Positions 1,535-30,170 of a DNA stretch of 64,000 bases are shown here, piece after piece; the first letter of the stretch is position 1; every line of letters starts with the position of its first letter. The DNA is taken from assembly GCF_029581575.1 (NCBI RefSeq), contig NZ_CP089975.1, positions 1,488,001 through 1,552,000 on the forward strand, in the 5' to 3' direction. The position numbers and the translations under genes are program-made. The DNA comes from Moraxella nasibovis. GTDB taxonomy: Bacteria; Pseudomonadota; Gammaproteobacteria; Pseudomonadales; Moraxellaceae. The notes under the pieces are model-generated. The model was not told the origin of the DNA. It was given only the letters and a program-made list of their open reading frames with translations, and did not search any database.

Positions 1535-1548
1535 AACTGGGGATAAAA

Positions 1549-5743: not shown

Positions 5744-5755
5744 GAGATTTAAGCA

Positions 5756-6343: not shown

Positions 6344-6354
6344 GGAGATGGGCT

Positions 6355-6810: not shown

Positions 6811-6812
6811 CA

Positions 6813-7438: not shown

Positions 7439-7447
7439 GGAGATACA

Positions 7448-7927
7448 ATGACCCAACTCACCAAAAACTTCACCCTCTCCGAGCTAACCCGCTCAGCTAC
7501 CGCCACACGGCTAAGGCTCAACAACACCCCAGACGAACGCACGACAACGAATCTAAGAATCGCCGCTCGTGCCTTGTGGCAACCTGTGCGAGACATCTTG
7601 GGCGTGCCAATGGTTGTAAGCAGTGGCTATCGCAGCCCTACGCTCAACCGTGCCATCGGTGGCAGCACCACATCAGCTCACTGTTACGGGCTTGCGATTG
7701 ACTTTACCGCCCCAGCCTTTGGCAACACTCGTAAAGTCGCCCGCCACCTGGTGGCAGAATTAAAGGAGCGTGGCATTAAGTTTGACCAGCTGATCCTTGA
7801 ATTTCCAGACAGCCCAAATTCATGGATTCACTTAGGCTACAAGCACCCGAACGGACAACAGCGTGGGCAAGTCTTGACCGCCGTCAAGCGTGGCGGTCGT
7901 ACGGTGTATTTGAGTGGATTAAGATAA
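7448..7927 (+). CDS. M15-family D-Ala-D-Ala carboxypeptidase-like endolysin
   Basis: A 159-residue peptidase M15_3-type protein. N-terminal FTLSELTRSATA is followed by VSSGYRSPTLNRAIGG, the zinc site S-A-H-x-x-G-x-A-x-D (SAHCYGLAIDF, about residue 75) and a distal WIHLGY supplying the last histidine. These enzymes cleave peptidoglycan peptides. It ends the rightward lysis block, following a GGAG site, and is followed by a terminator. A second, unrelated lysin lies at 10182-10976. Confidence 0.88.
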   Translation: MTQLTKNFTLSELTRSATATRLRLNNTPDERTTTNLRIAARALWQPVRDILGVPMVVSSGYRSPTLNRAIGGSTTSAHCYGLAIDFTAPAFGNTRKVARHLVAELKERGIKFDQLILEFPDSPNSWIHLGYKHPNGQQRGQVLTAVKRGGRTVYLSGLR

Positions 7928-7933
7928 AAAAGC

Positions 7934-7969
7934 AAAACGCCCAAAGCTGGCAGGCTCTGAGCGTTTTTA
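7934..7969 (+). terminator. Rho-independent terminator of the baseplate-lysis operon
   Basis: AAAACGC and GCGTTTT arms (7934-7940 / 7961-7967) run into a T-run just after the endolysin stop. The loop is long, with minor internal pairing. Confidence 0.6.
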
Positions 7970-8002
7970 ATTTAACCCTTTTGATATGGAAAAAGGCTAA
8001 AT

Positions 8003-8158
8003 ATGAATATTGATGATTATACCAAGATTTTTGCATTTTTGCTAGACAAGGTGGATAAAATGAAGAACTCCCGTTATTGGTCGCTGTGGTTTTTTGGACT
8101 ATTTACTGTTACCTTGATTTTTGCACCCAATTTTATCCATGCGATTAAATGGTGGTAG
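8003..8158 (+). CDS. 51-residue membrane protein of antirepressor module 1
   Basis: An ATG ORF behind AAAAGG encodes 51 residues: a charged start containing FAFLLDKVDKMK, one hydrophobic helix (about 26-45), and the ending HAIKWW. It is a paralogue of the product of 12714-12863, sharing FLLDKV-x-KM and a terminal I-x-x-[VI]-[KR]-WW. It ends three bases before the promoter of the C4-like RNA. Function unknown; a small phage membrane protein (lysis, exclusion or immunity accessory) is possible. Confidence 0.65.
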   Translation: MNIDDYTKIFAFLLDKVDKMKNSRYWSLWFFGLFTVTLIFAPNFIHAIKWW

Positions 8159-8161
8159 GGC

Positions 8162-8190
8162 TTGACAAGGCATAGGCAATGAGCTAATAT
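8162..8190 (+). promoter_or_regulatory. Sigma70 promoter of antirepressor module 1
   Basis: TTGACA (8162-8167), a 17-base spacer and TAATAT (8185-8190): close to consensus. Module 2 has the equivalent TTGCAA-N17-TAATAT with the same GCTAATATAA context. Start expected near 8197. Confidence 0.8.
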
Positions 8191-8196
8191 AAGCCC

Positions 8197-8256
8197 AAGG
8201 TGTCAGAACCCCAATAACTAGCGGATAACCGCACCCGAAAGCCCAAGCGGTTTTTT
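8197..8256 (+). ncRNA. c4: C4-like antisense RNA of module 1
   Basis: A short untranslated segment between the promoter and a terminator hairpin (AACCGC 8227-8232 / GCGGTT 8247-8252, then a T-run). It holds TCAGAA (8203-8208) and TAACTAGCGG (8215-8224), complementary to TTCTGA (8437-8442) and CCG-a-CTAGTTA (8422-8432) further along the same transcript. CCGC (8229-8232) can pair with the preceding GCGG or with the terminator's GCGG, an alternative fold. P1/P7 C4 RNA represses antirepressor synthesis in cis this way. Assignment rests on layout, complementarity and the second copy. Confidence 0.7.
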
Positions 8257-8371
8257 ATTGCCTAAAATTCCCTTTCATACCGTTCATCAAATTTGATGAA
8301 CGCTCAAAATATAACCGATGTTGAAATTCCAACATCGAAAACCGAACCGCAAATTAGCGGAACGAAAAGTT

Positions 8372-8488
8372 ATGTTAGGGGGGCGGAGAGATAAGGTGGC
8401 TTGCCACACGAATAATCCCAGCCGACTAGTTACGGCTTCTGAACCCCCTAGCACCCTAACAAGGGTAAATTTCAGAAAATTTAACTAG
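8372..8488 (+). CDS. Leader ORF (icd-like position) before antirepressor 1
   Basis: A 38-codon ORF starts at ATG 8372 and ends in a TAG overlapping the AGGAG ribosome-binding site of the KilA-N gene ten bases on. It covers the predicted C4 target, as icd does in P1, where blocking the leader's translation lowers ant expression. The matching frame in module 2 stops after seven codons, so the peptide itself may not matter. Coding status is uncertain. Confidence 0.4.
   Translation: MLGGRRDKVACHTNNPSRLVTASEPPSTLTRVNFRKFN
8378..8442 (+). promoter_or_regulatory. C4 target region of module 1
   Basis: This stretch contains CCG-a-CTAGTTA-cggc-TTCTGA (8422-8442), complementary to the antisense RNA, and a hairpin GTGG-CTTG-CCAC (8396-8407). 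Module 2 has GTAG-CTTG-CTAC at the same place, a compensating G-C to A-T change with the same CTTG loop. GGGgGCGG (8379-8386) may give a second short contact with CCGCaCCC of the antisense RNA. Confidence 0.65.
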
Positions 8489-8497
8489 GAGTTCCTT

Positions 8498-9214
8498 ATG
8501 AACGCACTTACCATTGCCAATCACTCAATCCGTACATCAGGCGATTTGTATTCACTCAACGACCTGCATAAATCATCTGGCGGAAATGCCAAACATCAGC
8601 CAGCCAACTTTATGCGTAACGAACAAACCCAAGAACTTATCCACGCCATTGAAGAAGAAGGCTCTGTCGCTTATCACACCATTCGGGGTGGCAACGCCAA
8701 ACAACAAGGTACATTTGTCTGCCGTGAGTTGGTCTATGCCTATGCGATGTGGATCTCTGCCAAGTTTCACTTAATGGTCATTCGTGCTTTTGATGCGTTA
8801 AATACTGGGGCTATCTCTTGTCTTAGCAATCATCAAGGGCTGTCTGTCTGCCAAGCCGCCACATTACAAAAAGCAGTCAAGGCAAAGTGTCGCTATGACC
8901 GCCGTCATTATCAAAGACTGTACAATGCCCTGTATGATGAATTTGGCGTGAAGAGCTACAAGGATATTTTGCCTGAGGACTTTGAGACGGCGATGGATTT
9001 TATCCAAGCATTTCGGTTTGATGAACATGAAGAACTGGCACGCTCTGCCGAGCTACTGGCATGGCATACCAAGCACATCTATGACTGGTACAAGCAAATC
9101 GAACACCCCTTACGAGCCATCGCTCCACAGCTGTCGGCACAGGTGCATGACCACATCATCTATGCCAATGGCTATGCAGGTCAGGTGGGGCGTAGGCTTG
9201 CCATGACTAGATAA
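8498..9214 (+). CDS. KilA-N domain antirepressor-type protein
   Basis: A 238-residue protein. Residues 1 to about 105 form a KilA-N domain (IRTSGDLYSLNDLHKSSGG; FVCRELVYAYAMWISAKFHL). Residues from about 115 carry the P22 antirepressor C-terminal type domain (CQAATLQKAVKAKCRYDRRH; QRLYNALYDEFGVKSYK), nearly identical to that of 11930-12652. Such proteins bind phage repressors or DNA and promote induction. It follows AGGAG and the C4-like leader, and its end overlaps the convergent gene S by eight bases. The antirepressor role is inferred. Confidence 0.82.
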   Translation: MNALTIANHSIRTSGDLYSLNDLHKSSGGNAKHQPANFMRNEQTQELIHAIEEEGSVAYHTIRGGNAKQQGTFVCRELVYAYAMWISAKFHLMVIRAFDALNTGAISCLSNHQGLSVCQAATLQKAVKAKCRYDRRHYQRLYNALYDEFGVKSYKDILPEDFETAMDFIQAFRFDEHEELARSAELLAWHTKHIYDWYKQIEHPLRAIAPQLSAQVHDHIIYANGYAGQVGRRLAMTR

Positions 9215-9662
9215 GCCCTTCTAGGTAGTCTAGCACCGCCTCATCAATTATCTGCTTATCCTCGTCCGAGATACCCAGTAGCTCACGCACAGGATAGGCG
9301 GCACTCGTGCCACGCTTGGCATTGATGCGGGCGGTGAGTCCGTATTGATGCACTTCGGCGACTTGTGCCATGCGTCCGACATAGCCGATGGCAAAGCCTT
9401 CACTGCTTTGTTCTATTTTCATGTGGCGGGCTTGCTTGATGGTGTTCATCATCTTTTTACGCACTCGTTGCCCACGGCGTTTACGCTGGGGCTTTTTGGG
9501 CGTGTAGGCAGAGCCATCGACATTCTGCTGGGCGGTGATACGCTTTTTTTGGTTGTTGCGTACTTTTTGGGCGAGCGTCTTTTTGAGCTTTAACATTTGC
9601 CCATCAGACAGCCCATCAATGATACGCTCTAAATGCTCGGGTAGGTAGGACAGCTCAGCCAC
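9207..9662 (-). CDS. S: Phage tail completion protein S (virion morphogenesis)
   Basis: A 151-residue protein from GTG 9662, which overlaps the stop of R; a longer in-frame extension to 9842 lies wholly inside R and is not needed. P2 gpS is 150 residues. Family features include the basic middle (GSAYTPKKPQRKRRGQRVRKK), GYVGRMAQVAEVHQYG and AAYPVRELLGIS near the end. It caps the tail before head joining. It is last in the leftward L-X-lysin-R-S block. Confidence 0.88.
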   Translation of the reverse strand: MAELSYLPEHLERIIDGLSDGQMLKLKKTLAQKVRNNQKKRITAQQNVDGSAYTPKKPQRKRRGQRVRKKMMNTIKQARHMKIEQSSEGFAIGYVGRMAQVAEVHQYGLTARINAKRGTSAAYPVRELLGISDEDKQIIDEAVLDYLEGLI

Positions 9663-10185
9663 GAATATCCACCAACGGCATCTCAAGCATCCATTTTTCT
9701 TCTGGCATGCCTGTGGGAAATTCGCCCAGCACCGCATCATTCTTGGCGTCGATGATTTGCACCTTTTGGGTGGGCGTTGGGCGTGTGTAAGTAGGCTCGG
9801 CTGGATAGTCAAAGACCGCCTTGCCGTCCGTTTCTTTGACAATAACTCGCTCGGTCAATGGCAAAGTGATGGACAGATCTACTTTGCGATTATCCAAAAT
9901 ATCCGCCACGAATTTTACGCCGTCTTTTGCCTTATCAAGATTTGCCAAAAGCTCGCTTTGGTGGTCTCGTAGCCATGCGTAGAGTGCCACCGCTACCGCT
10001 GCCATGTCCTCGGCAAAGTCGGTGATGATGACATTGAGCGTGTAGCGATATTCGAACGACAGCCCATTGGCAAGCGTATTAACCATTCGCCCCTCATCAA
10101 CAAAGATGAGCAGACGGTCAGGGTTTTTGGCAAGTTCTGGTAGGCTTGCCAAAAGGTGCGAGCGTAGCAGATTAGGCTTTTTCAT
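9655..10185 (-). CDS. R: Phage tail completion protein R
   Basis: A 176-residue protein of the P2 gpR family: MKKPNLLRSHLLASLPELAK followed by DRLLIFVDEGRMVNTLANG and SFEYRYTLNVIITDFAEDM. It acts with S in finishing the tail. Its ATG overlaps the lysin stop by four bases and its stop overlaps the S start. P2 gpR is about 155, so this one is slightly longer. Confidence 0.9.
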   Translation of the reverse strand: MKKPNLLRSHLLASLPELAKNPDRLLIFVDEGRMVNTLANGLSFEYRYTLNVIITDFAEDMAAVAVALYAWLRDHQSELLANLDKAKDGVKFVADILDNRKVDLSITLPLTERVIVKETDGKAVFDYPAEPTYTRPTPTQKVQIIDAKNDAVLGEFPTGMPEEKWMLEMPLVDIRG

Positions 10186-10976
10186 AGCGACTCCAAGCGT
10201 CTTAATTCTGCCAAAAACTTATAATCATAGCCCAGCTTTTGGTAGTCTTTGCCGTTATATAGCATAAAGACCTTATCCCAGTCGCCTTTTTGCAGTGCGT
10301 CTAATAGTCCTTTTTTGGTTTTGATGAAGCGCACAAAGGCATCGAGCTGGTGGCTCTCGCTTGTCTGCATTTGCATCACAAAGTCATCGATGGATTCATA
10401 GCCCAATGCCTGCCAATTTTCGCCCATGATTTGAAAACAGCCCCAGCTTGCCGAGCTGTGTGCCAAATCTTTATCAATGGTCTTGGCAAAATTGAGCCGT
10501 ACATATTCAGATAAGCCACCTTTGTAGCCGCCTGTTTTTGGGTTGATGATATTTGGGTGGCGAGCCGTCAGTTCGTCCGCTCTGCTTTTGCCATATTTGG
10601 CTTTAACTAGACGGTAAAATACATGGCGTTCAAATAAGATTTTAGGCTTATTTGACCCAATAAAACCACCACCAGCACTCTCCACCTTAGCAAAAGCACG
10701 CACCACATTGACAGGCACGCCAAGCTCAGTCGCCGCCGTCTCATAGTCTGCCATAGACAGCAGATGAGTTGACGGCTCGCCCTGTAATGCCTGCCATGTC
10801 TTAATACCCACCACGCCATCAACGGCAAGACCTGCCTTACCCTGATAATTTATGACCGCTTTTTCGGTGGCACTGCCAAAGTCGCCATCGATGGCAAGTT
10901 TTGCCCCATGTTCATTGAGTTTGGCTTGTAGCTGGGCGACTTTTTCGCCCTTGCTGCCGTATTTAAGAGGTTTCAT
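10182..10976 (-). CDS. Endolysin: peptidoglycan-binding plus N-acetylmuramidase domains
   Basis: A 264-residue lysin. Residues about 5-65 form a PG_binding_1 domain (LKYGSKGEKVAQLQAKLNEH; IDGDFGSATEKAVINYQ). Residues about 85-262 match the N-acetylmuramidase domain (PF11860), with FAKVESAGGGFIGSNKPKIL carrying the likely catalytic glutamate and SSASWGCFQIMGENWQALG. It cuts the glycan strand. It takes the lysozyme slot between X and R, so the phage carries two different lysins. Confidence 0.9.
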   Translation of the reverse strand: MKPLKYGSKGEKVAQLQAKLNEHGAKLAIDGDFGSATEKAVINYQGKAGLAVDGVVGIKTWQALQGEPSTHLLSMADYETAATELGVPVNVVRAFAKVESAGGGFIGSNKPKILFERHVFYRLVKAKYGKSRADELTARHPNIINPKTGGYKGGLSEYVRLNFAKTIDKDLAHSSASWGCFQIMGENWQALGYESIDDFVMQMQTSESHQLDAFVRFIKTKKGLLDALQKGDWDKVFMLYNGKDYQKLGYDYKFLAELRRLESL

Positions 10977-10979
10977 TGT

Positions 10980-11186
10980 TTAGCTCCAAAGTTGAATGGT
11001 TTGTTTGACGGGGTTGGTTTTGATGAGTGTGGGCAAGATGACCTTTGTGCCGATGGGCAAGATGACATCTGCACGGGCAAGATGCGGATTAACCGCCAGT
11101 ATCTCTTCCACCACTGACCTGCCATAGTAGCGATAGCTGATGGCATCAATACTGTCATTTTGAATACTATAAACGGTGCGGTTCAT
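10980..11186 (-). CDS. X: Phage tail protein X (LysM-like)
   Basis: A 68-residue protein with the gpX pattern: DSIDAISYRYYGRS, VEEILAVNPHLA and LPIGTKVILP. P2 gpX is 67 residues. The LysM-like fold is typical of small tail assembly proteins. It overlaps L by four bases upstream and lies three bases before the lysin. Confidence 0.92.
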   Translation of the reverse strand: MNRTVYSIQNDSIDAISYRYYGRSVVEEILAVNPHLARADVILPIGTKVILPTLIKTNPVKQTIQLWS

Positions 11187-11632
11187 ATCAGCTCCACCAC
11201 CGTTTGATTACGCCCCTGCATCTGGGCGATTGCCCACATTTTATTTCGCCGATATTCATCAATCGTTGCCGACAGCTCCGCCGCCTTGTCAGAGCCTTTG
11301 TTGGTGCTGTCGTAATTGCGATATTTTTCACACACTTTCGCCCCCACACCGTTGGCGATGGCGGAAAAATACCACACTTCAAAGGCGTTTCTGCCGTCAA
11401 TGACAGCTGTGGATAAGTCGGTAAGTCTGCCAGCTTTCTTGGTCAATGGGTCAAGCAGTCGCATGACATCCAGCGTCTCTTCTAAGATAATCTGATGCAA
11501 GCGAAAATCCGTCACCGAGCCATCAACCCGCACAAAATCACGCACCTCACTTACGCTCACCGATGGGAAAAATTCCCCACCGTCAATCTGTGACAAGGCT
11601 GTGGATAACTCGCCATTGGCAATCAAGCTCAT
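11183..11632 (-). CDS. L: Phage head completion/stabilization protein L
   Basis: A 149-residue gpL-family protein: GEFFPSVSVSEVRDFVRVDG, DFRLHQIILEETLDVMRLLD and a C-terminal YDSTNKGSDKAAELSATIDE stretch. It completes filled heads. In P2, L directly follows M; here antirepressor module 2 (about 11640-12863) separates them, so L-X-lysin-R-S must be read through the module or use another promoter. Confidence 0.9.
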   Translation of the reverse strand: MSLIANGELSTALSQIDGGEFFPSVSVSEVRDFVRVDGSVTDFRLHQIILEETLDVMRLLDPLTKKAGRLTDLSTAVIDGRNAFEVWYFSAIANGVGAKVCEKYRNYDSTNKGSDKAAELSATIDEYRRNKMWAIAQMQGRNQTVVELI

Positions 11633-11653
11633 CTTTTATCTCCAAAAAATAAC

Positions 11654-11682
11654 TTGCAAAATAAAATTCAATAGGCTAATAT
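11654..11682 (+). promoter_or_regulatory. Sigma70 promoter of antirepressor module 2
   Basis: TTGCAA (11654-11659), 17 bases, TAATAT (11677-11682), matching the module 1 promoter in spacing and in GCTAATATAA. Start expected near 11689. Confidence 0.75.
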
Positions 11683-11688
11683 AACCAC

Positions 11689-11743
11689 AAGGTCTCAAAA
11701 GCCTATTATCAAGCGGTCATCACACCGTCATCGTGATTTTTTT
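11689..11743 (+). ncRNA. c4: C4-like antisense RNA of module 2
   Basis: It has CTCAAAA-g-CCT-at-TATCAAG (11694-11713), complementary over 17 pairs to CTTGATA-c-AGG-TTTTGAG (11824-11841) on the same transcript. A hairpin ATCAC/GTGAT (11719-11723 / 11733-11737) leads into a T-run, with an alternative CGGT/ACCG stem (11714-11717 / 11724-11727). TCATCACACCG (11717-11727) also matches CGGTGCGATGA of the target at ten of eleven positions. The boxes differ from module 1 yet remain complementary to their own target. Confidence 0.72.
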
Positions 11744-11775
11744 ATGCCTATACCATATATGATAAGTTATGGTTA

Positions 11776-11841
11776 GCGGTGCGATGATATAAGGTAGCTT
11801 GCTACACGAATAAATCCGCCTGACTTGATACAGGTTTTGAG
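11776..11841 (+). promoter_or_regulatory. C4 target region of module 2
   Basis: It contains CGGTGCGATGA (11777-11787), the hairpin GTAG-CTTG-CTAC (11794-11805), and CTTGATA-c-AGG-TTTTGAG (11824-11841). No leader ORF spans it: the ATG at 11769 meets TAA after seven codons. Control may therefore act by RNA structure or premature termination rather than leader translation. Confidence 0.62.
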
Positions 11842-11929
11842 CCGCTAACCGCCCTAATTTCCCACTTACCCAATTTGGGTAAGTGAAAAAACAGGGATTA
11901 TATTCAACCTATCAAAAAGGTATATCAAG

Positions 11930-12652
11930 ATGAAAGCATTAACTTTCCAAAACATCACTCTTTCCCCTGCCAAAGTAGATAATCAAATTTGGCTAACTTC
12001 TACTGATATTGCACAAGCCTTAGGCTATTCTCAACCAAATGCGGTTACCAAGCTGTATAATCAAAATGCTGATGAGTTTCGCTCAGATACAACGCAAGTT
12101 ATAGATAATCCAAAACAGAAAAATTCAACAATCCGCATTTTCTCCCTGCGTGGTTGCCATCTTATCGCTATGTTTGCCCGCACCAAAGTCGCCAAAGAGT
12201 TCCGTCAATGGGTGCTAGACATCTTGGATAAAGAAGTGGGCGAGCCTACCATCTGCACCTGTGAGCCACGCCTATCTGACCGCCAAGCCGCCACACTCCA
12301 TAAAGCCATCAAAGCCAAATGCCGCTATGAACGCCGTCATTATCAACGGCTGTATAACGCCCTGTATGATGAGTTTGATGTCAGAAGCTATAAAGCCATC
12401 AACCCTGCCGACTATCAGGCGGCGATGGACTTTGTGCGACGGTTCGAGCTTGACCCCATCGCCAGTCTCAATCTGCCAGCCATCCACAGTATCCTTACCG
12501 ACCAAATCCGCCAAAACCGTGAAGCCAGAAGCGAGATTGATGGTCTGCTTAGTGGATTTCGCCGAATGCTGGAGCATATCGACGACTTACAAAGCCGCCT
12601 GCATGTCAGTGAATGCAATGTCGCTGCTCTACAACGGCAACTGTTAGGCTAG
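11930..12652 (+). CDS. Bro-N domain antirepressor-type protein
   Basis: A 240-residue protein. Residues 1 to about 105 are a Bro-N domain (NQIWLTSTDIAQALGYSQPN; FSLRGCHLIAMFARTKVAKE). Residues about 120-180 repeat the C-terminal domain of the module 1 protein (RQAATLHKAIKAKCRYERRH; RLYNALYDEFDVRSYK). The last 55 residues look like a coiled coil. Bro-N and KilA-N are DNA-binding domains common in phage antirepressors. It lies against the late operon's direction. Confidence 0.82.
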   Translation: MKALTFQNITLSPAKVDNQIWLTSTDIAQALGYSQPNAVTKLYNQNADEFRSDTTQVIDNPKQKNSTIRIFSLRGCHLIAMFARTKVAKEFRQWVLDILDKEVGEPTICTCEPRLSDRQAATLHKAIKAKCRYERRHYQRLYNALYDEFDVRSYKAINPADYQAAMDFVRRFELDPIASLNLPAIHSILTDQIRQNREARSEIDGLLSGFRRMLEHIDDLQSRLHVSECNVAALQRQLLG

Positions 12653-12680
12653 GTTCACTACCCCACAGCTTAAAATCCCA

Positions 12681-12705
12681 CCCCACGCAGCCCGACTGTG
12701 TGGGG
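12681..12705. terminator. Strong hairpin between convergent module 2 genes
   Basis: CCCCACGCAG (12681-12690) pairs with CTGTGTGGGG (12696-12705) around a five-base loop; ten pairs, one G-U. No T-run follows on either strand, so it is only a probable terminator or an end-protecting hairpin. Confidence 0.5.
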
Positions 12706-12713
12706 CGTTGGTG

Positions 12714-12863
12714 CTACCACCAGCGAACAGCAGTGATGATGTCTGGCAATGCAAAAAACAACAGACCCATCAAAATAACCGACAAGATTGCCAAAAATCG
12801 CCAAGTTTGCATTTTTATTACCTTATCTAGTAAAAAATTAAGAAGTTTGATATAATCTTCCAC
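12714..12863 (-). CDS. 49-residue membrane protein of antirepressor module 2
   Basis: The frame is open back to a TTG at 12995, but GTG 12863 behind AGAAGGA is the better start because the product then matches the 8003-8158 protein end to end: FLLDKV-I-KM, one hydrophobic helix (about residues 20-38), and the ending AVRWW. A small membrane protein accompanying each antirepressor module suggests linked function, but no role is known. Confidence 0.6.
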   Translation of the reverse strand: MEDYIKLLNFLLDKVIKMQTWRFLAILSVILMGLLFFALPDIITAVRWW

Positions 12864-13031
12864 AAGATTTAATCCTTCTGCATTAAGGTTAAATTTAGAA
12901 AAAGTCCAGACCGCCACAGTTTGGGCTTTTTTGTTAATTTTATTAAAAACACGGGAACGGCTGACGGCATGGTTGCAAGATAAATCAGCAATCAAGACAT
13001 CAGCAGACCCGTGTTGGCGCGAGGCACGCTT

Positions 13032-13718
13032 TTAAGCGGCGGCAAGTTTTTTGGCGGACGCCAAATCTGCTTTACCACCGCATTTGTCATGTAGGGCTAA
13101 TGCCATAGACAAGGCATCCACCGCCAAATCCGCCCCTTGACCTGTCTGCTTGGCACACGCCAGATAATGCCGACCGATGGCAAGATACAGCTTGGCACGC
13201 ACTTCATCCGGCATATCACGAGCGGTGGCAGCTAGGCTTTCATCACCCAACAAATCATGCAAGGCGTGCAATGCGTCCGTGTCAATCGGCTCGTTTTGCT
13301 TTTGGCGTTTTAGCTCATTTTCGGCAAGCTCTTCGGTCAAGATACACGCCACCGTGCGTTTGAACGCATCGGGCATCACCAAAGAATGCACCAAAGCATA
13401 GCGACCGATCTGCAAGGCTTTGGCGTACTGGCGCAAATCCAAGCACCACACCAGCATCGTCATCACAACTTCATCTTGTACGCCAGCGTTGGCGGACAGC
13501 ACGCCGTCCACATAGGGCAGATGATGTTCAATAAGTTTGGCTTTTAGCTCGTTTTTAAGCTCCAAGCCTTGCAGCTGTTTTAGCCTATGCCTGTCATTGG
13601 CAAGCTGTGCCAGCTGTAACTCGTACGAGCTGGCATTTTGCATAGAGCCGTATTCTGCCGCACGCTCAGCATCGGCTTTGGCTTGGTGCTGTAGAAAATG
13701 TCGTCTAGCAAGGTTCAT
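13032..13718 (-). CDS. M: Terminase small (endonuclease) subunit M
   Basis: A 228-residue gpM-family protein: ARRHFLQHQAKADAERAAEY, then LIEHHLPYVDGVLSANAG and VWCLDLRQYAKALQIGRYAL. With gpP it cuts cos DNA for packaging. The C-terminal third is alanine-rich. It follows the major capsid gene by nine bases, as in P2. Confidence 0.92.
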   Translation of the reverse strand: MNLARRHFLQHQAKADAERAAEYGSMQNASSYELQLAQLANDRHRLKQLQGLELKNELKAKLIEHHLPYVDGVLSANAGVQDEVVMTMLVWCLDLRQYAKALQIGRYALVHSLVMPDAFKRTVACILTEELAENELKRQKQNEPIDTDALHALHDLLGDESLAATARDMPDEVRAKLYLAIGRHYLACAKQTGQGADLAVDALSMALALHDKCGGKADLASAKKLAAA

Positions 13719-13727
13719 AACGCCCCC

Positions 13728-14759
13728 TTATGCCACGATTTCGATGTTTTCCGCCATCGCACACAAGCCCAAATCTTCAATAAAGTAGCCTTCGTTGGAG
13801 CTTTCGTAGTTTTCGATTTGATCTCGCTTGGCGTTGTCAACGATGGTGCGACGGCGTGCGCCTTCTTGGACATAGATGGACAGATTGTCAAAAGTTGTGA
13901 CCAAAATCGTCCCTTCTGGGAAAAACGGCACGGCATACACAGGCAGATTGCCCATGCGTTTTTGTGCGATGATGGTGTCAGCAGCCAGGCTTTCGGTATT
14001 TTGCTGGTCTTTATTGACCAGTGGGAAATACTTATCAGCGACCATTTTACGACTGGTAATCACCACCAAATCAGGATTATTCTGGTGCCACGGCTCAATC
14101 ATCTCATCGACTAAGTTCATCACTAGTGCGTCTAGGTTGTGGTAGTCGCATTCATCGGTTTTGCCGATTTTGATTTTTTGGTCGTCTTTACCTGCTTTGA
14201 GCGTGCGAGATTCATTCTCGGTGCGTTGGTGCTGTAACCAGCCAATATTGACATCTTGCAAAAGTTGATTGGTATTAAAATCAGTCTCTTTGGCGACTTT
14301 AACGCCATTAAAGCCGATCATGATGCGATCTAGGGCCTGGCGCTTGACAATGACATCACGGAACTTGGCATAAAAATCTGGGAATTTCGCCCATTGATCC
14401 AGCTTAGCGTAAGCAATCGCCGTGTCAAAATTGGTCTTGGCGCATTCGTACTGGCGAGAATCCAGCATGGTCGGATCAATCGGCTGGCGGTCTTTTGCCT
14501 GCGTGTCAGTACGGCTGGCAATCGGACGGCTCACGCCAAGACCAATGCCCTGACCTTTCATTTCACGCACCAAATAGGTGTTAATTTTGCTCAAAAATTC
14601 GCTAGATTCTTGAATTTTGGTCTCCAAGGTCTGCTGTACGGACGGCTCAACGGTGAATTTTTCGTGGACCGAAGTAACTTGGTTAATGGCGGCAAGACTT
14701 GCCATTGCTTGATTAAATAATGCTCGTGTTTCGTTACGCATTTTTTTGCTCCTTAGCAA
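13728..14759 (-). CDS. N: Major capsid protein N (P2 family)
   Basis: A 343-residue capsid protein. It begins MRNETRALFNQAMASLAAIN at the internal ATG six residues on (14741), so the true start may be there; family cues include GLGVSRPIASRTDT, LDSRQYECAKTNFDTAIAYA and NPDLVVITSRKMVADKYFPL. It overlaps the end of O by seven bases from the upstream start. It forms the icosahedral shell after cleavage by gpO. Confidence 0.92.
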   Translation of the reverse strand: MLRSKKMRNETRALFNQAMASLAAINQVTSVHEKFTVEPSVQQTLETKIQESSEFLSKINTYLVREMKGQGIGLGVSRPIASRTDTQAKDRQPIDPTMLDSRQYECAKTNFDTAIAYAKLDQWAKFPDFYAKFRDVIVKRQALDRIMIGFNGVKVAKETDFNTNQLLQDVNIGWLQHQRTENESRTLKAGKDDQKIKIGKTDECDYHNLDALVMNLVDEMIEPWHQNNPDLVVITSRKMVADKYFPLVNKDQQNTESLAADTIIAQKRMGNLPVYAVPFFPEGTILVTTFDNLSIYVQEGARRRTIVDNAKRDQIENYESSNEGYFIEDLGLCAMAENIEIVA

Positions 14760-15577
14760 TCAATCGCATGATGAATATGGGTATGGCTCACCGCCAGCGG
14801 TCTGTCAGGGATGGCGGCGATGCTGTCAATCTGGGTGCTTAGCGTCTGCACTTGTTGTTTTAGCTCACGGATCTCGTCAGACTTGGCGTCCAGCTGTTCT
14901 TTGAATTGCTGACACAATTCATCAAAGCACTTGGTCAGATCAACGATTTCAACTTCGTCTTCCGTCTCTTCTTGACCTTCTAAGTCGTCTTGTTCGTCCG
15001 AGCTGTCTTTGGCGTCTTTGTCGGTGAAAAACTGAGCGATGCGCTCTACGATACTATCCGCCAGCGACTTAGGCTCACTAAAATCAAAGTCCGTCAATAC
15101 CGCTGCTGTGAACAGATTACCCTCTGACTGTTTGCGGTCAGCAAGGGGATTTTGTTTAGCATTAGCACAAAAGGTCAGCATCTCAGTACCAAGGCTTGCT
15201 GGGCTGTCTGTTACTGCCAAGCCCACCAAATACGCCTTGCCAGTCTTAGCAAAGTTAGTATCAATCTCCACCGAGGTGTAGATTTTTTGATTTTTAGCAT
15301 TGAGTGCTTTTAGTTTGTCATTAGGCTTAATTTGGGCAAACAACGCCAAACGCTCTTCACCATCAACCATCACCGCGTCAGATTTGAGTGCCAGTACATC
15401 ACCGTACGCACCAAACTCACTGTCAGGATACCAACCACGCACATGCTCTACATTGATGCGTGCGCCATAGATGGCTGGGTCATAAGTTGCCGCCATCTGC
15501 TCAATCCACTCAGGCTGAATCTCTCTGCCGTCGGTGGTTTGCCCTGCCGTAGCAATGCGAAACCATTTCATACTCAT
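14753..15577 (-). CDS. O: Capsid scaffolding protein O (serine protease)
   Basis: A 274-residue gpO-family protein. The N-terminal protease part has KWFRIATAGQTTDGREIQPE, INVEHVRGWYPDSEFGAYGD (catalytic His region) and TDSPASLGTEMLTF with the likely Ser. An acidic linker and coiled coil (about residues 195-255) make the scaffold. It heads the leftward O-N-M operon opposite P, behind a GGAG site. Confidence 0.92.
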   Translation of the reverse strand: MSMKWFRIATAGQTTDGREIQPEWIEQMAATYDPAIYGARINVEHVRGWYPDSEFGAYGDVLALKSDAVMVDGEERLALFAQIKPNDKLKALNAKNQKIYTSVEIDTNFAKTGKAYLVGLAVTDSPASLGTEMLTFCANAKQNPLADRKQSEGNLFTAAVLTDFDFSEPKSLADSIVERIAQFFTDKDAKDSSDEQDDLEGQEETEDEVEIVDLTKCFDELCQQFKEQLDAKSDEIRELKQQVQTLSTQIDSIAAIPDRPLAVSHTHIHHAIDC

Positions 15578-15644
15578 AGGAAATCTCCAAAATTCATAGA
15601 CAGCAAAAGACTAACCCACCACCACCGATAAAACAAACCACCAA

Positions 15645-15706
15645 TGTTGTAAACCTGCCATCTACAACAGCCCACACGCCACACATCGCATGATGATGGT
15701 TAAGAT
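15645..15706 (+). promoter_or_regulatory. Late-operon promoter with activator palindrome (copy 2)
   Basis: TGTTGTA-N11-TACAACA (15645-15669), then a roughly 50-base block nearly identical to 494-541, and TAAGAT (15701-15706). The N11 spacer differs from copy 1 while both arms are kept, which marks the arms as the recognised part. It lies between divergent O and P. Confidence 0.7.
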
Positions 15707-15732
15707 AAGGCAAATTTGACGACAACCGCCTT

Positions 15733-17499
15733 ATGAGTAATTTAACCGACATTGCCAGCCTTGAATTGGTGCTAGATAACCGCCTCAAAGCCAAATTTTT
15801 ATGTTGGCTGGGCTGGCGTAATGCCGACATCGCAGAAGCTCTGGGCGAAAATGAAAACACCATTGCCAGCTGGAAGTCCCGTGACAAATGGGAGCAGATA
15901 CACGGCGAAAATCGTGTAGAACAAGCCCTGCAAGTACGCCTCATGACCCTTGTCATGAAAGAAAAGAAAAACTCTGGCGACTATAAAGAAATCAGCGAAT
16001 TGTTCAAAAACTACAAAGAATTTGTGCGACTAGAACGCTACCGAGACGGTGGCAACGAAGCCGACCTAAACCCCAAAGTATCAGAACGAGGCAAAGCCAA
16101 AAAACGCAAAGCCAATACTTTTGATGATGAAGCGGTGGAAAAGCTGGTACTTGCCTTTGAAGAGTCGTTATTTGATTACCAGCGCACTTGGTATCAAGCT
16201 GGTGATGAGCGAACGCGTGTGATTTTAAAATCACGCCAGATTGGGGCGACTTGGTATTTTGCTCGTGAGGCATTAGTAGACGCTGTTACCACAGGACGCA
16301 ATCAAATCTTTTTGTCAGCATCAAAAGCCCAAGCCCATATTTTCAAAGAATACATCAAGCAGTTCGCCCATTCTGCCTGTGGCGTGGAGCTATCAGGCGA
16401 CCCGATTGTGCTGTCGAATGGGGCAAATTTGACTTTTTTAGGCACGAATGCCCGAACCGCACAGGGTCATCACGGCAATTTTTACTTTGATGAATTTTTT
16501 TGGGTTTATGGTTTTGACGAGCTAAACAAAGTCGCCTCAGGTATGGCCATGCACAAAAAATGGCGTAAAACCTACTTTTCCACGCCGTCCACTATGGCAC
16601 ACGAAGCCTATACTTTTTGGACTGGATCACGATTTAACAAGGGCAAGCCCAAAGACAAGCACCTTAATATTGATGTATCGCACAAAGCACTCAAAGACGG
16701 CAAACGCTGTGATGACAAACTCTGGCGGCAAGTAGTAACGATTATGGACGCACAAGCTGGTGGCTGTGATTTGTTTGATATTGACGAGCTTAGATTTGAA
16801 TATTCAGCGGCAGACTTTGCCAATCTTTTGATGTGCGAATTTGTCGATGACGGCGAGTCAGTATTTCCACTTAATATGCTCCAGCCGTGTATGGTGGACT
16901 CTTGGGAAGTGTGGCGTGAAGATTATCGCCCCTTACACAGCCGCCCTTTTGGCAATAAACCTGTGTGGGTGGGCTATGACCCTGCTGAGACTGGTGACAG
17001 TGCAGGTCTTGTCGTGGTTGCTCCGCCTGCGGTGGCAAATGGTAAATTCCGTGTGCTAGAACGACAGCAGTTTAAGGGTATGGACTTTGCCGCACAGGCG
17101 AACATCATCAAAGGCATTACCCAAAGGTACAATGTTACCTACATCGGTATTGACACCACAGGCATGGGAACGGGCGTGGCACAATTAGTCAAATCATTCT
17201 TTCCTGCTCTGACGACTTTTCACTATTCGCCAGAAGTCAAAACCCAATTGGTTCTAAAAGCGTGGGATGTGGTCAAAAATGGACGGCTGGAATTTGACGC
17301 AGGACATACCGACATCGCCCACAGCCTAATGAGCATCAAAAAGACGCTCACCGCAAGTCAAAAACAGATGACCTTTGTCGCTAGTCGCAATGATGACATC
17401 GGTCATGCTGACCTAGCGTGGGCGTTAATGCACGCCCTACACCATGAGCCACTGGCAGGACAAACCGAACAGACGACAAGTTTTATGGAGTTTTCTTAA
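15733..17499 (+). CDS. P: Terminase large (ATPase) subunit P
   Basis: A 588-residue gpP-type packaging motor. The N-terminal 60 residues contain a small-terminase-like helix-turn-helix (LGWRNADIAEALGENENTIA). The ATPase has LKSRQIGATWY (about residue 163) as Walker A-like and FYFDEFFW (about residue 253) as Walker B. The nuclease part includes WVGYDPAETGDSAGLVVVAP and the late GHADLAWALMHAL. It reads rightward from late promoter 2; its stop overlaps the methyltransferase ATG by one base. Confidence 0.95.
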   Translation: MSNLTDIASLELVLDNRLKAKFLCWLGWRNADIAEALGENENTIASWKSRDKWEQIHGENRVEQALQVRLMTLVMKEKKNSGDYKEISELFKNYKEFVRLERYRDGGNEADLNPKVSERGKAKKRKANTFDDEAVEKLVLAFEESLFDYQRTWYQAGDERTRVILKSRQIGATWYFAREALVDAVTTGRNQIFLSASKAQAHIFKEYIKQFAHSACGVELSGDPIVLSNGANLTFLGTNARTAQGHHGNFYFDEFFWVYGFDELNKVASGMAMHKKWRKTYFSTPSTMAHEAYTFWTGSRFNKGKPKDKHLNIDVSHKALKDGKRCDDKLWRQVVTIMDAQAGGCDLFDIDELRFEYSAADFANLLMCEFVDDGESVFPLNMLQPCMVDSWEVWREDYRPLHSRPFGNKPVWVGYDPAETGDSAGLVVVAPPAVANGKFRVLERQQFKGMDFAAQANIIKGITQRYNVTYIGIDTTGMGTGVAQLVKSFFPALTTFHYSPEVKTQLVLKAWDVVKNGRLEFDAGHTDIAHSLMSIKKTLTASQKQMTFVASRNDDIGHADLAWALMHALHHEPLAGQTEQTTSFMEFS

Positions 17500-18173
17500 T
17501 GAATATCGACTTACATCAAGGCGACTGCTTGGATATTTTAAAACAAATTCCAGATGGCTCGGTGGATATGGTGCTGACCGATCCACCGTATGGCATCAAT
17601 TATCAGTCGTCGCGCAGATACAAGGTCAAGAAATTTGACAAGATCTTAAATGATGAAACGCCATTTACTCAATTTATCGCACATTTACCACGATTATTAA
17701 GCAAAGACGGCTGTGGCATGATTTTCACAAGATGGGATAAACAACAAATATTTATTGATGAGTTAAAAGCCCACGGCATCAATCCCAAAAACATCATCAT
17801 TTGGGATAAGGTCGCACATGGCATGGGAGACCTAAAAAGAGCCTTTGGCTCAAGATATGAAAGCATTATTTTTTATTGCAATCATGGATTTATGTTTAAT
17901 GGCAAACGCCCAACCGATATTGTGCGTTTTAATCGCATAGGGGGGAGTTTAATACACCCAAATCAAAAACCGATTGAATTGTTGCAATACTTAATAGAAA
18001 AATGCACCAGACCAAACTCAACCATTCTAGACTGCTTTATGGGTAGCGGCTCAACAGGCGTCGCTTGTGTTAATACTGGGCGAAATTTTATTGGCATTGA
18101 ATTAGATGAACATTATTTTTCGGTCGCCAAAAATCGCATTAACAATCAACTTAACGAACAGGAAACATCATGA
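17499..18173 (+). CDS. DNA methyltransferase (N4/N6 type, beta-class order)
   Basis: A 224-residue methyltransferase with DPPYGINY (motif IV, about residue 28) before the SAM-binding FMGSGSTG (about residue 177), the beta-class order. NQKP precedes the C-terminal half. It modifies adenine N6 or cytosine N4; the site is unknown. It is embedded between P and Q with one- and four-base overlaps, so it is made with the packaging proteins and may protect phage DNA from host restriction. P2 itself has no gene here. Confidence 0.9.
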   Translation: MNIDLHQGDCLDILKQIPDGSVDMVLTDPPYGINYQSSRRYKVKKFDKILNDETPFTQFIAHLPRLLSKDGCGMIFTRWDKQQIFIDELKAHGINPKNIIIWDKVAHGMGDLKRAFGSRYESIIFYCNHGFMFNGKRPTDIVRFNRIGGSLIHPNQKPIELLQYLIEKCTRPNSTILDCFMGSGSTGVACVNTGRNFIGIELDEHYFSVAKNRINNQLNEQETS

Positions 18174-19150
18174 CAAACCAACCCGTCGCTTTTACCTTTG
18201 GCGAGCCTGTCGCCATGCACGACCGAGAAATTTTTGACTATGTAGAATGCTGGCACAACGGTCGCTGGTACGAACCGCCTGTGAATTTACACGGTTTGTC
18301 CAAAGCCTACAAATCCACACCGTATTTATCCAGCGGTATTATTTTTAAACGCAATTTTCTTGCCAATTTATTCATCCCACACGCCAAACTTGGCCGCAAA
18401 GCCTTTGAGCAGATTGCCCTAGACTTCATCTGGTGTGGCAATGCCTATCTTGAAGAAATCCGCAGTGTGCGTGGCGGTGTGTTACGCTACCAGCCAAGCC
18501 TCGCCAAATACACCAGAGCAGGCAAAAATGGACAATTTTTCATGCTTTATGATGATGAATTGGGCTATCAAGAGCATAAATTTAGTAGCCGAATTTGCCA
18601 CATCAAAGAATGCGACATTAACCAAGAAATCTATGGCTCGCCTGAATATTATGCCGCCTTGCAGTCAGCGTGGCTCAACGAATCAGCGACGCTATTTCGC
18701 CGCAAATACTACAATAACGGCTCGCACGCAGGCTTTATCTTGTATGTCAATGACCCTGCCAACGACCCCAATGACATTGACGCACTCCGCCAAGCATTAA
18801 AAGACAGCAAAGGACCGGGCAATTTTCGCAATTTGTTCTTTTACAGCCCGAATGGCAAAAAAGACGGCATTCAAATTATCCCTGTATCTGAAATCGCCGC
18901 CAAAGATGATTTTGGCACAATCAAAAACATCAGCCGAGATGATGTACTATCCGCACTGCGTATCCCACCACAACTGTTAGGCATCGTGCCAACCAACGCC
19001 GGCGGTTTTGGATCAATCCGCGATGCATCTGAGATGTTTTGGCGAAATGAAATTTTGCCACTACAAGCTCGGCTAGAAATCATCAATGAATGGGCTGGGG
19101 ATGAGATTGTGAGGTTTAGGGATTATAAGGTGTCTGGCAACGAAGAATAA
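18170..19150 (+). CDS. Q: Portal protein Q
   Basis: A 326-residue P2-type portal: FDYVECWHNGRWYEPPVNLH, YLSSGIIFKRNFLANLF, DFIWCGNAYLEEIRS and LRIPPQLLGIVPTNAGGFGS. Twelve copies form the vertex for DNA entry. P2 gpQ is 344. It is the last recognisable phage gene on this side and is followed by a terminator. Confidence 0.93.
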   Translation: MTNQPVAFTFGEPVAMHDREIFDYVECWHNGRWYEPPVNLHGLSKAYKSTPYLSSGIIFKRNFLANLFIPHAKLGRKAFEQIALDFIWCGNAYLEEIRSVRGGVLRYQPSLAKYTRAGKNGQFFMLYDDELGYQEHKFSSRICHIKECDINQEIYGSPEYYAALQSAWLNESATLFRRKYYNNGSHAGFILYVNDPANDPNDIDALRQALKDSKGPGNFRNLFFYSPNGKKDGIQIIPVSEIAAKDDFGTIKNISRDDVLSALRIPPQLLGIVPTNAGGFGSIRDASEMFWRNEILPLQARLEIINEWAGDEIVRFRDYKVSGNEE

Positions 19151-27618: not shown

Positions 27619-27706
27619 GCCCGTAGGTTGGGTTGAGGTACGAAACCCAACAAATTCAATGAGTTACGCCATAAATGCTGGGTTACGCTGTCGCTAAATT
27701 AGCCTA
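27619..27706. repeat. Dispersed GTAGGTTGGG repeat, copy 2
   Basis: A clean copy: GCCCGTAGGTTGGGTTGAGG, GAAACCCAACAAATTCAATG, AAATGCTGGGTTACGCTGTC and an AGCCTAC end. Its end gives the TAG stop of the 27704-28183 gene, so that gene's natural C-terminus may have been replaced. Confidence 0.85.
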
Positions 27707-28183
27707 CTGTTCTTTTTGATACATACGCAAAAGTTTAATCAATTCATCTTTATACTCATCGTTATATGGAATAAAATATTTTTTATCATTTATTGATATA
27801 AGTATTTTATCATAAACGTAATGTGAAGTTATTCTACTCCATGGCGTCATTTTTTTAATCTCAATTAATTCAATGTTATTTAAATATTCATATTGAAACG
27901 GTGAAAATTTTAATGCTATTTTTTCATCAAGAAAAAATATTCCTAGAGCGGTTTTTTTTAATAAATATCTATATGCAAGATTTTGCAAACTAAACCCAAA
28001 ACCAGCAATGCAAAGAAATAGTGAAAAATATGTATGAGATGATGGAAGTAGTCCAAAGAAAATATAAAATGAACAGAGAGTAACAAAAATGGTTGGTATC
28101 ATTTCAAAATTCTTTGCATCTAAATATTTTGGATTGATGTATTTATTATACCTATCATAATCCAAATTTTTAATAATATTCAT
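27704..28183 (-). CDS. Hypothetical two-helix membrane protein
   Basis: A 159-residue AT-rich gene. Two hydrophobic helices (about residues 29-47 and 51-68) precede a soluble C-terminal part rich in Ile, Lys and Tyr with no recognised family. It begins in the region next to the IS110 element and ends in repeat copy 2. Composition suggests acquisition. Function unknown. Confidence 0.6.
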   Translation of the reverse strand: MNIIKNLDYDRYNKYINPKYLDAKNFEMIPTIFVTLCSFYIFFGLLPSSHTYFSLFLCIAGFGFSLQNLAYRYLLKKTALGIFFLDEKIALKFSPFQYEYLNNIELIEIKKMTPWSRITSHYVYDKILISINDKKYFIPYNDEYKDELIKLLRMYQKEQ

Positions 28184-28239
28184 TTTATCTCTCTGTCATT
28201 GGCAAGAAGTCCGTAGATACCATCTCTCCCCACCCCTTG

Positions 28240-29247
28240 TCAAGCCATATTATCTATCCTAACTTGTGGGGTGTAGGGAGTTTGGTGTTTGATCACACCA
28301 AAGCAGATTTGCACCAATTTACGCATACAAGCACATAAAGCTTGCATTTTGCATTTGCCATTTTGTTGTAAGCGTTCGTATTGGTCTTTAATGTCTGGAT
28401 TGTACTTGGTGGCAACGACTGCTGCCATATACAGCTTAGCTCTTAATTGAGCATTGCCTGTTTTGGCAAGTCTTGATCTGCCTTTAAACAATCCTGATTC
28501 TTGTTGTTTGGGAATCAACCCTAAAAAAGCAGAGACTTGTTTGGCATTGTTAAATTGTTTGGTATTAAACAAACTAAGCATTTGTCTTGACACCACCTGT
28601 CCCACTCCTTTGATGCTTTGTAAGAGTGTTTGCTCTTCTTTAAGTTTGGGGTGGTTGTTGATATGAGTGTCAATGTCATCGTTTAATTTGCTGATTGCCA
28701 ATTTTAATGCCACAATCATCTCGTCAATGGATTGTTTAACAATGGGGGTTGTGTCTGCCACTTCTGCTTTTTCTTTGCGGTTTTCTTCTCGCTGTAAGTC
28801 TTCATTTAGAGCATCAAGACGAGAAAGCAAAGACTTTAAATGACGAGCTTCAATACTTGGGGCAATCCAAGCATCAGGGTGGGTGGCTCTGCCATATCTG
28901 GCAAGGACAATACTGTCTTTTTTATCTGTCTTTTGTCTTACGCCTAAACTGTCCGCATAGTGTTTGACAAAGGCAGGATTGATGATAGAGACTTTAAAGC
29001 CTAAATCGTGTAAATAATACGCCAAAGGTTCGTGATATACCCCTGTGGCTTCCATAATAAGATGAATGTCGTTAAAGCTGACACTTGCACCAAGATTGGT
29101 TTTAAGCCAATGAATGATGTGTTCAAAGTCATCAAAGTGATTATTAAAGACTTTGGTTTTGACTTTCATTGTACTTAACTCTTTAAGCCAAGCCACATCC
29201 AGCTTGTGCTTGCTAACATCAATACCAACATAATAAGTCATTGTCAT
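28240..29247 (-). CDS. IS110-family DEDD transposase
   Basis: A 335-residue recombinase. YYVGIDVSKHKLDVAWL opens the DEDD (RuvC-like) domain, with IHLIMEATGVYHEPLAYYLH and KTDKKDSIVLARYG supplying further acidic residues. A coiled-coil linker (about 140-200) leads to the Tnp_20 domain: LLQSIKGVGQVVSRQMLS and FNNAKQVSAFLGLIPKQQES with the likely catalytic serine. It is related to the Moraxella invertase Piv. Intact, so possibly active. Starts at ATG 29247 or 29241. Confidence 0.93.
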   Translation of the reverse strand: MTMTYYVGIDVSKHKLDVAWLKELSTMKVKTKVFNNHFDDFEHIIHWLKTNLGASVSFNDIHLIMEATGVYHEPLAYYLHDLGFKVSIINPAFVKHYADSLGVRQKTDKKDSIVLARYGRATHPDAWIAPSIEARHLKSLLSRLDALNEDLQREENRKEKAEVADTTPIVKQSIDEMIVALKLAISKLNDDIDTHINNHPKLKEEQTLLQSIKGVGQVVSRQMLSLFNTKQFNNAKQVSAFLGLIPKQQESGLFKGRSRLAKTGNAQLRAKLYMAAVVATKYNPDIKDQYERLQQNGKCKMQALCACMRKLVQICFGVIKHQTPYTPQVRIDNMA

Positions 29248-29446
29248 CTAGCCTTGTTCATTCAGCGTCATGATTGAAAATCAATCAAGCGCTTGGATAC
29301 CATTCAGATTGTACGATGATAAGAAAGCTACTTGGGTTTAATCTACGAGACAGCATCAAAGTACTCAGGTTGGGTAGAAACTACCAAGTAACTTAGGGTG
29401 ATGGTATAATCTACCATGCCATCACCAAGATAGCTAGTCTTGGTGG
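29244..29446 (-). ncRNA. Predicted bridge RNA of the IS110 element
   Basis: On the transposase strand: a 5' stem-loop CACCAAGA/TCTTGGTG (29445-29438 / 29430-29423); a loop closed by AGTTACTTGG/CCAAGTAGCT (29393-29384 / 29335-29326) containing ACCCAACCT (29375-29367), identical to the left target plus core, and CGTAG (29347-29343), complementary to the right target CTACG; then ATGGTATC (29303-29296), identical to the element's right end plus core, and ACAAG (29257-29253), complementary to CTTGT at its left end. This is the target-loop/donor-loop plan of IS621 bridge RNA. Exact ends are inferred. Confidence 0.75.
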
Positions 29447-29457
29447 TGAGATACAAG

Positions 29458-29550
29458 GTTGGGTTGGGCTGAGCTTGCGAAACCCAACAAATTTAATGAG
29501 TTATGCCATAAATGCTGGGTTACGCTATCGCTAACCCAGCCTACGAGCTG
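29458..29550. repeat. Dispersed GTAGGTTGGG repeat, copy 3 (interrupted by IS110)
   Basis: GTTGGGTTGGGCTGAGCTTG, GAAACCCAACAAATTTAATG, AAATGCTGGGTTACGCTATC and CCCAGCCTACGAGCTG. The first bases, CCGTAG, lie across the IS at 28211-28216. Confidence 0.85.
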
Positions 29551-29597
29551 CCATATCAGCAGCCACATTGACATCTCAGCATAGGCAGTGGTACATA

Positions 29598-30044
29598 TTA
29601 ATGCCTATATTTACACTCCGAATGTCTTGATTGCCATGATAAATCCACATACACATAAGGAACATTCTCTGATGTAATGTTAGTGCCAAAGGATAAGGCA
29701 ATATCTTCTTTACAGTACAGCGCTCTATTTACATCTTGTTCAGTTAAAATCCATTGGTTGTTTTTTATATTTTGATGAATTTTTTGCATGGTGTGTTCGG
29801 TGGGATTGTAATAGTAATACATAAGTACCACAGCTCCACCCTGACGGTCAATCTGCCACTGTCGGTCAGGTTTGGTCAGGTCATAAACAATTTGATTCAT
29901 CAGTCTTGGAAATTCGGTTTCAAGCAAATGTTGGCGATCACGGTAATTATGAGGTTTTGATTGATAAAAACCTTTAATTTCAACAAACATGTAGAATATA
30001 AAAACACTAGCAATGATGATATGCAAATACCCTTTAGGTTTCAT
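29598..30044 (-). CDS. Hypothetical single-pass membrane-anchored protein
   Basis: A 148-residue protein with one N-terminal hydrophobic segment (about residues 7-22) and a polar remainder containing VVLMYYYYNPTEHTMQ and two late cysteines. No family recognised. It follows AAGGAGTGG. It is flanked on both sides by dispersed repeat copies, so it may be a mobile or strain-variable gene. Confidence 0.6.
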   Translation of the reverse strand: MKPKGYLHIIIASVFIFYMFVEIKGFYQSKPHNYRDRQHLLETEFPRLMNQIVYDLTKPDRQWQIDRQGGAVVLMYYYYNPTEHTMQKIHQNIKNNQWILTEQDVNRALYCKEDIALSFGTNITSENVPYVYVDLSWQSRHSECKYRH

Positions 30045-30077: not shown

Positions 30078-30170
30078 GCCCGTAGGTTGGGCTTTGCTTG
30101 CGAAACCCAACAAATTCAATGAGCTACACCACAAATGTCGGGTTTCACATTCGTTCAGCCCAACCTACCG
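30078..30170. repeat. Dispersed GTAGGTTGGG repeat, copy 4
   Basis: CCCGTAGGTTGGGCTTTGCT, GAAACCCAACAAATTCAATG, then AGCCCAACCTACCG. Both ends match as an inverted repeat (CGTAGGTTGGGC / GCCCAACCTACCG), best showing the terminal-inverted-repeat nature of the family. The rest of the gap to fur holds nothing recognised except a terminator. Confidence 0.85.

Follow-up and report, generated by a model that had tools for sequence, protein, structure and literature searches.

An IS110-group insertion sequence with a putative guide-bearing bridge RNA at a GTAG-tagged REP-like repeat

The window analyzed here, a 64-kb stretch of a single-contig genome (2,227,058 bases; host family Moraxellaceae), contains an IS110-family element lying in a repeated sequence (Table 1), and the question it raises is whether the leader of this element encodes a bridge RNA whose guides spell both the insertion site and the element's own ends. 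Judged by comparison of sequences, it very probably belongs to the IS621 kind of IS110-group insertion sequences, is autonomous and carries a guide-bearing bridge RNA.

Table 1. Features of the element and its insertion site, in window positions
Feature	Position	Strand	Details
IS110-family element	28217..29457	minus	1,241 bp including one CT core (left end)
Recombinase gene, 335 aa	28240..29247	minus	PF01548 and PF02371, both IS110-family domains
Right non-coding end, 23 bases	28217..28239	minus	terminates in ATGGTAT; sequence
Left non-coding end (leader), 210 bases, with bridge RNA	29248..29457	minus	sequence, fold, model match
Right CT core copy	28215..28216	minus	followed by ACGG; sequence
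Predicted circle-junction -35, TTGACA	28238..28243	minus	overlaps stop codon; consensus score only
Bridge RNA, model-covered part (both loops)	29248..29398	minus	98.4 bits, E=2.2e-25
Leader 5' stem-loop	29423..29445	minus	fold
Target-loop outer stem, 5' side	29384..29394	minus	11 pairs with 29325-29335
Target-loop outer stem, 3' side	29325..29335	minus	fold, swap test, covariation
Left target guide, ACCCAAC plus core CT	29367..29375	minus	guide 29375-29369, CT 29368-29367
Right target guide, CGTAG	29343..29347	minus	complement of CTACG; weight of fifth-place G/C unproven
Left donor guide, ATGGTATC	29296..29303	minus	sequence, donor-end comparison
Right donor guide, ACAAG	29253..29257	minus	sequence, donor-end comparison
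Target repeat, left part	29458..29487	minus	hairpin GTTGGGTTTCGCAAGCTCAGCCCAACCCAAC or nearly so; stops at insertion point

Organization of the element

There are nine copies of the element in the genome, the one in the window included, all 100% identical over 1,241 bp and with the same boundaries; searching the host genome with PF01548 gave nothing beyond these nine. Two of the copies (L005, 913183-914423, and L004, 915916-917156) are in opposite orientation about 1.5 kb apart and are a possible composite or inversion substrate. At the left boundary CCCAAC is followed by CTTGTATC, with the C of the core at 29457, and at the right boundary AGATGGTAT (28217) is followed by CT (28216-28215) and ACGG. 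A re-reading of the boundaries thus agrees with the first-pass annotation, which had the element bounded by CT on both sides in a native site CCCAAC-CT-ACGG, and the 210-base leader it described does extend from 29457 to the base preceding the ATG at 29247. A long non-coding end upstream of the gene (210 bases) and a short one downstream (23 bases) are the layout of the IS110 group.

The recombinase matches that of IS621 across its length (8wt6; E=4e-54) as well as that of ISCro4 (9t56; E=1e-49), the only distinct solved sequences found. The IS621 active site consists of D11, E60, D102, D105 and S241 (PMC11208158); the counterparts here, from an alignment read by eye, are D10, E66, D108, D111 and S251, and these are invariant in all ten aligned sequences, the window protein included. 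The protein combines the PF01548 and PF02371 domains with the DEDD motif and conserved serine of the IS110 group.

The predicted -10 of the circle junction, TATCTT, has its halves at 28219-28217 and 29457-29455 and is complete in the circle only, the joined ends giving TTGACA-18-TATCTT with the -10 across the junction (a consensus match), an arrangement also described in IS621 (PMC11208160). In 69 elements the best junction score comes to 8.6 of 12, compared with 6.3 for shuffled sequences, and scores of at least 9 occur in 61% versus 4%. Subterminal inverted repeats are 5 bp here and vary from 0 to 11 among the 69 elements, 39 of which lack the first pair; they are reported to be 2-3 bp in the IS110 group and 7-17 bp in IS1111 elements (PMC11208160, PMC11208158). 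The window element departs from IS1111 both in this length and in having its RNA upstream rather than downstream.

By analogy with IS621, the element would leave as a circle whose joined ends form a promoter serving the recombinase and a bridge RNA about 200 nt long. Pairing would then take place between the donor loop and the junction ATGGTAT-CT-TGT and between the target loop and ACCCAAC-CT-AC(G), with strand exchange by the recombinase at CT and no target duplication. The left guide would read the 3' arm of a REP-like hairpin and the right guide its tag.

The nine identical copies and the 335-codon frame, free of stops in all nine, argue for recent activity, and we infer that the bridge RNA is probably a working one. 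It is improbable that the bridge RNA is real and the element now inactive: nine identical copies could also come from a past burst or from gene conversion, but the intact frames, the identity over the full 1,241 bp, and the preservation of the active-site residues, the guides and the predicted junction promoter all speak for an active element.

Fold and guides of the putative bridge RNA

Positions 28100-29600 match no Rfam family, and a covariance model was therefore built. The first alignment of whole leaders was discarded as a basis for structure since it gave only 17 consensus pairs, a consequence of the outer stem being shifted by one base between clades; the stem was accordingly tested without alignment and the model rebuilt on sequences in one register. 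The resulting model (A4) contains 13 relatives, picked by hand from 24 sequences (A3) because their outer stems share one register. None is of the window's genus or titled Moraxellaceae, and L140, which fits the register, was excluded as Moraxellaceae. This relatives-only model finds the leader in the 64-kb window at 29398-29248 on the minus strand (98.4 bits, E=2e-25, A4 E-values being rough), with no second match up to E=10, and recovers 13 of 18 other loci; the five loci without an A4 match belong to relatives whose proteins are 31-32% identical.

The fold itself is stable (leader 29445-29258, z=-3.7; none of 200 shuffles is equally stable). The 21 named helix pairs are 97.1% paired on the A4 sequences, compared with 74.5% after shuffling and no more than 56% after a slide of 1-3 columns, figures that are favored by the structure having been drawn from the same sequences, and 17 of the 21 show two-sided (compensatory) changes. 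When the 3' sides of the outer stem are swapped among 26 distinct segments, with no alignment involved, the true partners form 9.9 contiguous pairs against 6.1, with a maximum of 7.4 in 2,000 swaps. The first-pass annotation had proposed a ten-pair stem (29393-29384/29335-29326), a covariance-model check of the leader and stem covariation among homologues as a test that could refute it; the stem is as claimed, with an eleventh pair (29394/29325) also forming, the model recovers the leader, and the covariation is present. Two internal loops and conserved helices in the leader are the features of a bridge RNA.

Between them the target guides can base-pair with the two strands of the insertion site, including its core. 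The donor guides do likewise with the ends of the element, apart from the second core base on the left, which mismatches CT because a C follows ATGGTATC. The earlier reading of the first loop, as holding the left target with the core and CGTAG as the complement of the right target, thus stands with its positions. That of the second loop stands for the donor guides ATGGTATC and ACAAG and fails at the second core base. The resemblance it drew to the IS621 plan, with a target loop followed by a donor loop and the core within the guides, is borne out in order, position and strand.

Each of the nine copies has CCCAAC before CTTGTATC at one end and CTAC after GGTAT at the other. The guide ACCCAAC agrees with the left flank at 7/7 positions in eight copies and 6/7 in the ninth, and the right flank is CTACG in seven copies and CTACA in two. 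Insertion of other copies at unrelated sites had been named beforehand as refuting the guide assignment; all nine share one kind of site. The idea that G is preferred after CTAC was considered and rejected (7 of 9 insertions versus 32 of 53 intact sites, p=0.46).

The target repeat and guide changes among relatives

The target repeat has a stem GTTGGG...CCCAAC with CTAC at its foot, which is GTAG on the opposite strand, and it looks like a GTAG-tagged REP. REPs are sorted by GTAG and CGTC tags and an Escherichia coli RAYT is reported to cleave the GTAG motif (PMC3733652); a close relative of the repeat, GTAGGTTGGGCTGAGCTTGCGAAGCCCAAC, is in print (PMC2817692), and the REP queries printed for IS621 end in CCTACG or CCTAC (PMC11208160). 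The main texts of PMC3733652 and PMC2817692 mention no Moraxella and no Psychrobacter. Counted as words, without stems, CCCAACCTAC is intact at 53 further places in the genome, followed by G at 32 (reversed control, 0) and by another base at 21 (reversed control, 2). The proposal of a repeat-directed target was right and can be narrowed to a repeat resembling a GTAG-tagged REP. Among the insertions, the six-base stem is present upstream in eight of nine and CTAC to the right in all nine. Four more exact copies of CCCAACCTAC are within the window (27623-27632, 30082-30091, 30159-30168 and 62993-63002), two of which face each other with 67 bases between them.

Two RAYT-like genes with the same translation (L214, 917338-917634, and L216, 1434865-1435161 in the genome; PF01797, E=3e-8, over the family cut-off) each adjoin complete or partial target repeats, and the element copy at 915916-917156 occupies the repeat just upstream of the first of them. 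A survey of 232 loci with the genome's own RAYT as query, the host's own matches being additional, located RAYT-like stretches near element relatives in G261, Pseudomonas sp. BN417, Methylobacter sp. BlB1 and Candidatus Nitrotoga sp. BS.

Relatives of the element were recovered from genome contigs by an alignment-based scan, a single-protein scan of the contigs having found none. The conserved donor ends (CTTGTATC and GGTATCT) served to delimit the elements, independently of the target, and guides were taken from fixed alignment columns; this excluded relatives that end differently (35 of 133 and 47 of 80). Of 133 loci in the first set 98 passed, representing 36 distinct leaders and 24 guide programs, and in a second set of named loci 33 of 80 passed (28 groups). 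The left guide in the first set matches its flank at 5.38 of 7 positions versus 2.38 for permuted flanks (maximum 3.77), and the right guide at 3.12 of 4 versus 1.33 (maximum 2.16), with 0 of 10,000 permutations reaching either value and descent uncorrected. In the second set, also uncorrected for descent, the left guide scores 6.0 versus 3.2 (0 of 5,000) and the right guide 2.88 versus 2.48, just above permutation (1 of 5,000), the power for the right guide being low because CTAC hardly varies there. The second set thus agrees with a rule that guide follows flank for the left guide, and weakly for the right. Both the covariance model and the left-guide rule hold on sequences outside those used to set them up.

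There are departures of several types. The distinct leaders L140, L141, L144, L145, L146, L179 and L187 of the first set match at no more than 3 of 7 of the fixed left-guide columns. Freeing the register brings L144 to 7/7 and L179 and L187 to 6/7 each, with L145 staying unmatched, and L146 shares nine letters with its site two columns away (read by eye). Low left-guide scores in the second set are those of L290 (3) and L266 (4). The variable base of the left donor guide equals the element end in all 66 scorable elements (39 C-C, 27 T-T), the donor-guide motif being absent in three of 69. We note that the base beside the core seems free in those of L153-L159 and L190-L200 whose leader type is L153, L154, L155, L157, L158 or L199, a group in which the guide is AGTGCTG or AATGCTG and the site-final base A, T or G.

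Hairpins were sought at one insertion each of the 66 of 69 distinct elements with enough flank, without correction for descent. In the CTAC class, 18 of 42 insertions are exactly at a hairpin foot (0.8 in shuffled sequence) and 29 of 42 with one mismatch (3.6). For other right targets, none of 24 is exact (0.6) and five of 24 have one mismatch (2.8 expected). That all relatives target hairpins was therefore rejected, with 0 of 24 exact for non-CTAC elements and 0 of 34 for the G011 element. The right guide itself is CTAC in all 45 CTAC-class elements, so that in this class the right guide is devoted to the constant tag and the left guide to the variable stem, which is possibly a new regularity. 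A split into short and long right guides between the CTAC class and the rest was also rejected, both being above permutation at right-target positions 5-7.

Two relatives are informative. The first is a sister in G012, 81% identical and present in two copies, with the guide ACGCACC and sites ACGCACC and ACACACC. The second is the G011 element (55%), with guides GTTCGCC and GCTCAG; all 34 copies were fetched and all are at a matching site, two having one mismatch to the guides. It is very unlikely that the recombinase alone recognizes the repeat, by sequence or hairpin shape, with the leader words being leftovers or regulatory sequence. Nine copies in one repeat family would look alike under protein-only recognition, and 29 of 42 CTAC-class insertions are at hairpins, yet the leader words change with the site across elements, the 81%-identical sister included, and the G011 site has no detectable hairpin while its guides match throughout. 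Least probable of all, to the point of being negligible, is that the guide matches are chance words of 4-9 bases chosen by a model-aware reader, an explanation refuted at the family level by the fixed-column permutation tests and opposed by the covariance-model match and the nine concordant copies.

The idea that guides track the commonest host repeat holds only in part. Across 14 of the genus's 21 other genomes, CCCAACCTACG is commonest in the host (32 versus 0-13 in the 14 congeners) and CGCACCCTACG is commonest in G012 (8 versus 0-2), but TTCGCCCTGAGC has more copies in G002 (40) than in G011 (29).

Known systems and cohabiting elements

The element resembles IS621 of Escherichia coli (PMC11208160, PMC11208158) in its DEDD and serine recombinase, a bridge RNA in the upstream end whose target loop comes ahead of the donor loop, the CT core and a REP-like target, a circle-junction promoter being predicted here, and differs in guides and host. 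With ISEc21 and the IS1111 seekRNA elements it shares an upstream non-coding region and guides to both target strands; IS1111 elements differ in having the RNA downstream and the guide order reversed, and ISEc21 in having as its target a linear site within other insertion sequences, not a REP (PMC11187229). ISPpu9, ISPpu10 and ISPa11, compared by insertion habit only, likewise have copies inserted in REP sequences (PMC1525189), ISPa11 being an IS1111-family element (PMC11187229). The target resembles GTAG REPs and their RAYTs in having GTAG beside the GTTGGG...CCCAAC stem and RAYT-like neighbors (PMC3733652, PMC2817692).

IS110 elements that target REPs (PMC1525189, PMC11208160), covariation of guide and target (PMC11208160) and natural guide change between relatives (PMC11187229) are already in the literature, and by its sequence the window element is therefore a clean, fresh example of a known bridge-RNA system, not a new system. 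Our literature search, with most subscription journals outside its coverage, found no paper joining IS110 guides to the GTAG tag and none on natural trans-guiding. The locus illustrates that comparison alone suffices to verify a bridge RNA first recognized in raw sequence. With 81% identical proteins and different left guides and sites, this element and the sister in G012 form a natural matched pair for testing the guide rule. It also links two kinds of mobile element, with REPs as landing pads and an RNA-guided element reading them.

One relative occupies a site that its own guides do not spell. L145 (G132:C6) is 98-100% identical to L144 (G192:C7) in each 100-base block, and L144 occupies the site spelled by its own guides. 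The L145 site matches its own guides at 6 of 13 positions and those of L188 (G132:C12), in the same genome, at 12 of 13. The comparison, with the left register free, included six genomes with at least two elements, and in 15 other insertions the element's own guide is never worse than the cohabitant's (there are five ties, in which the guides are nearly alike). The placement of L145, a single case and no proof, would be accounted for if it had inserted with the bridge RNA of another element or had replaced a resident one; a relative occupying a site that a cohabitant's guides spell is possibly new.

A bolder proposal, which we regard as doubtful, is that the elements of this IS110 branch are RNA-guided specialists for REPs, whose right guide stays on CTAC, complementary to the RAYT-cut GTAG tag, and whose left guide follows the fast-changing stem, and that bridge RNAs also act in trans between cohabitants, installing one at another's sites (L145 in G132, which would enter at CTCTTTCA sites through the guides of L188). 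If true, the division between tag and stem and insertion with foreign guides would contribute to an explanation of how abundant sites are found by these elements and of the spread of guides.

Elsewhere in the window, an open frame on the element's strand (27704-28183) has its start codon about 34 bases past the element's right end, and the insertion may alter its expression. The phage-like genes at 558-19150, with tail, protease, terminase-like and portal-like products (translations read by eye), suggest a Mu-like prophage.
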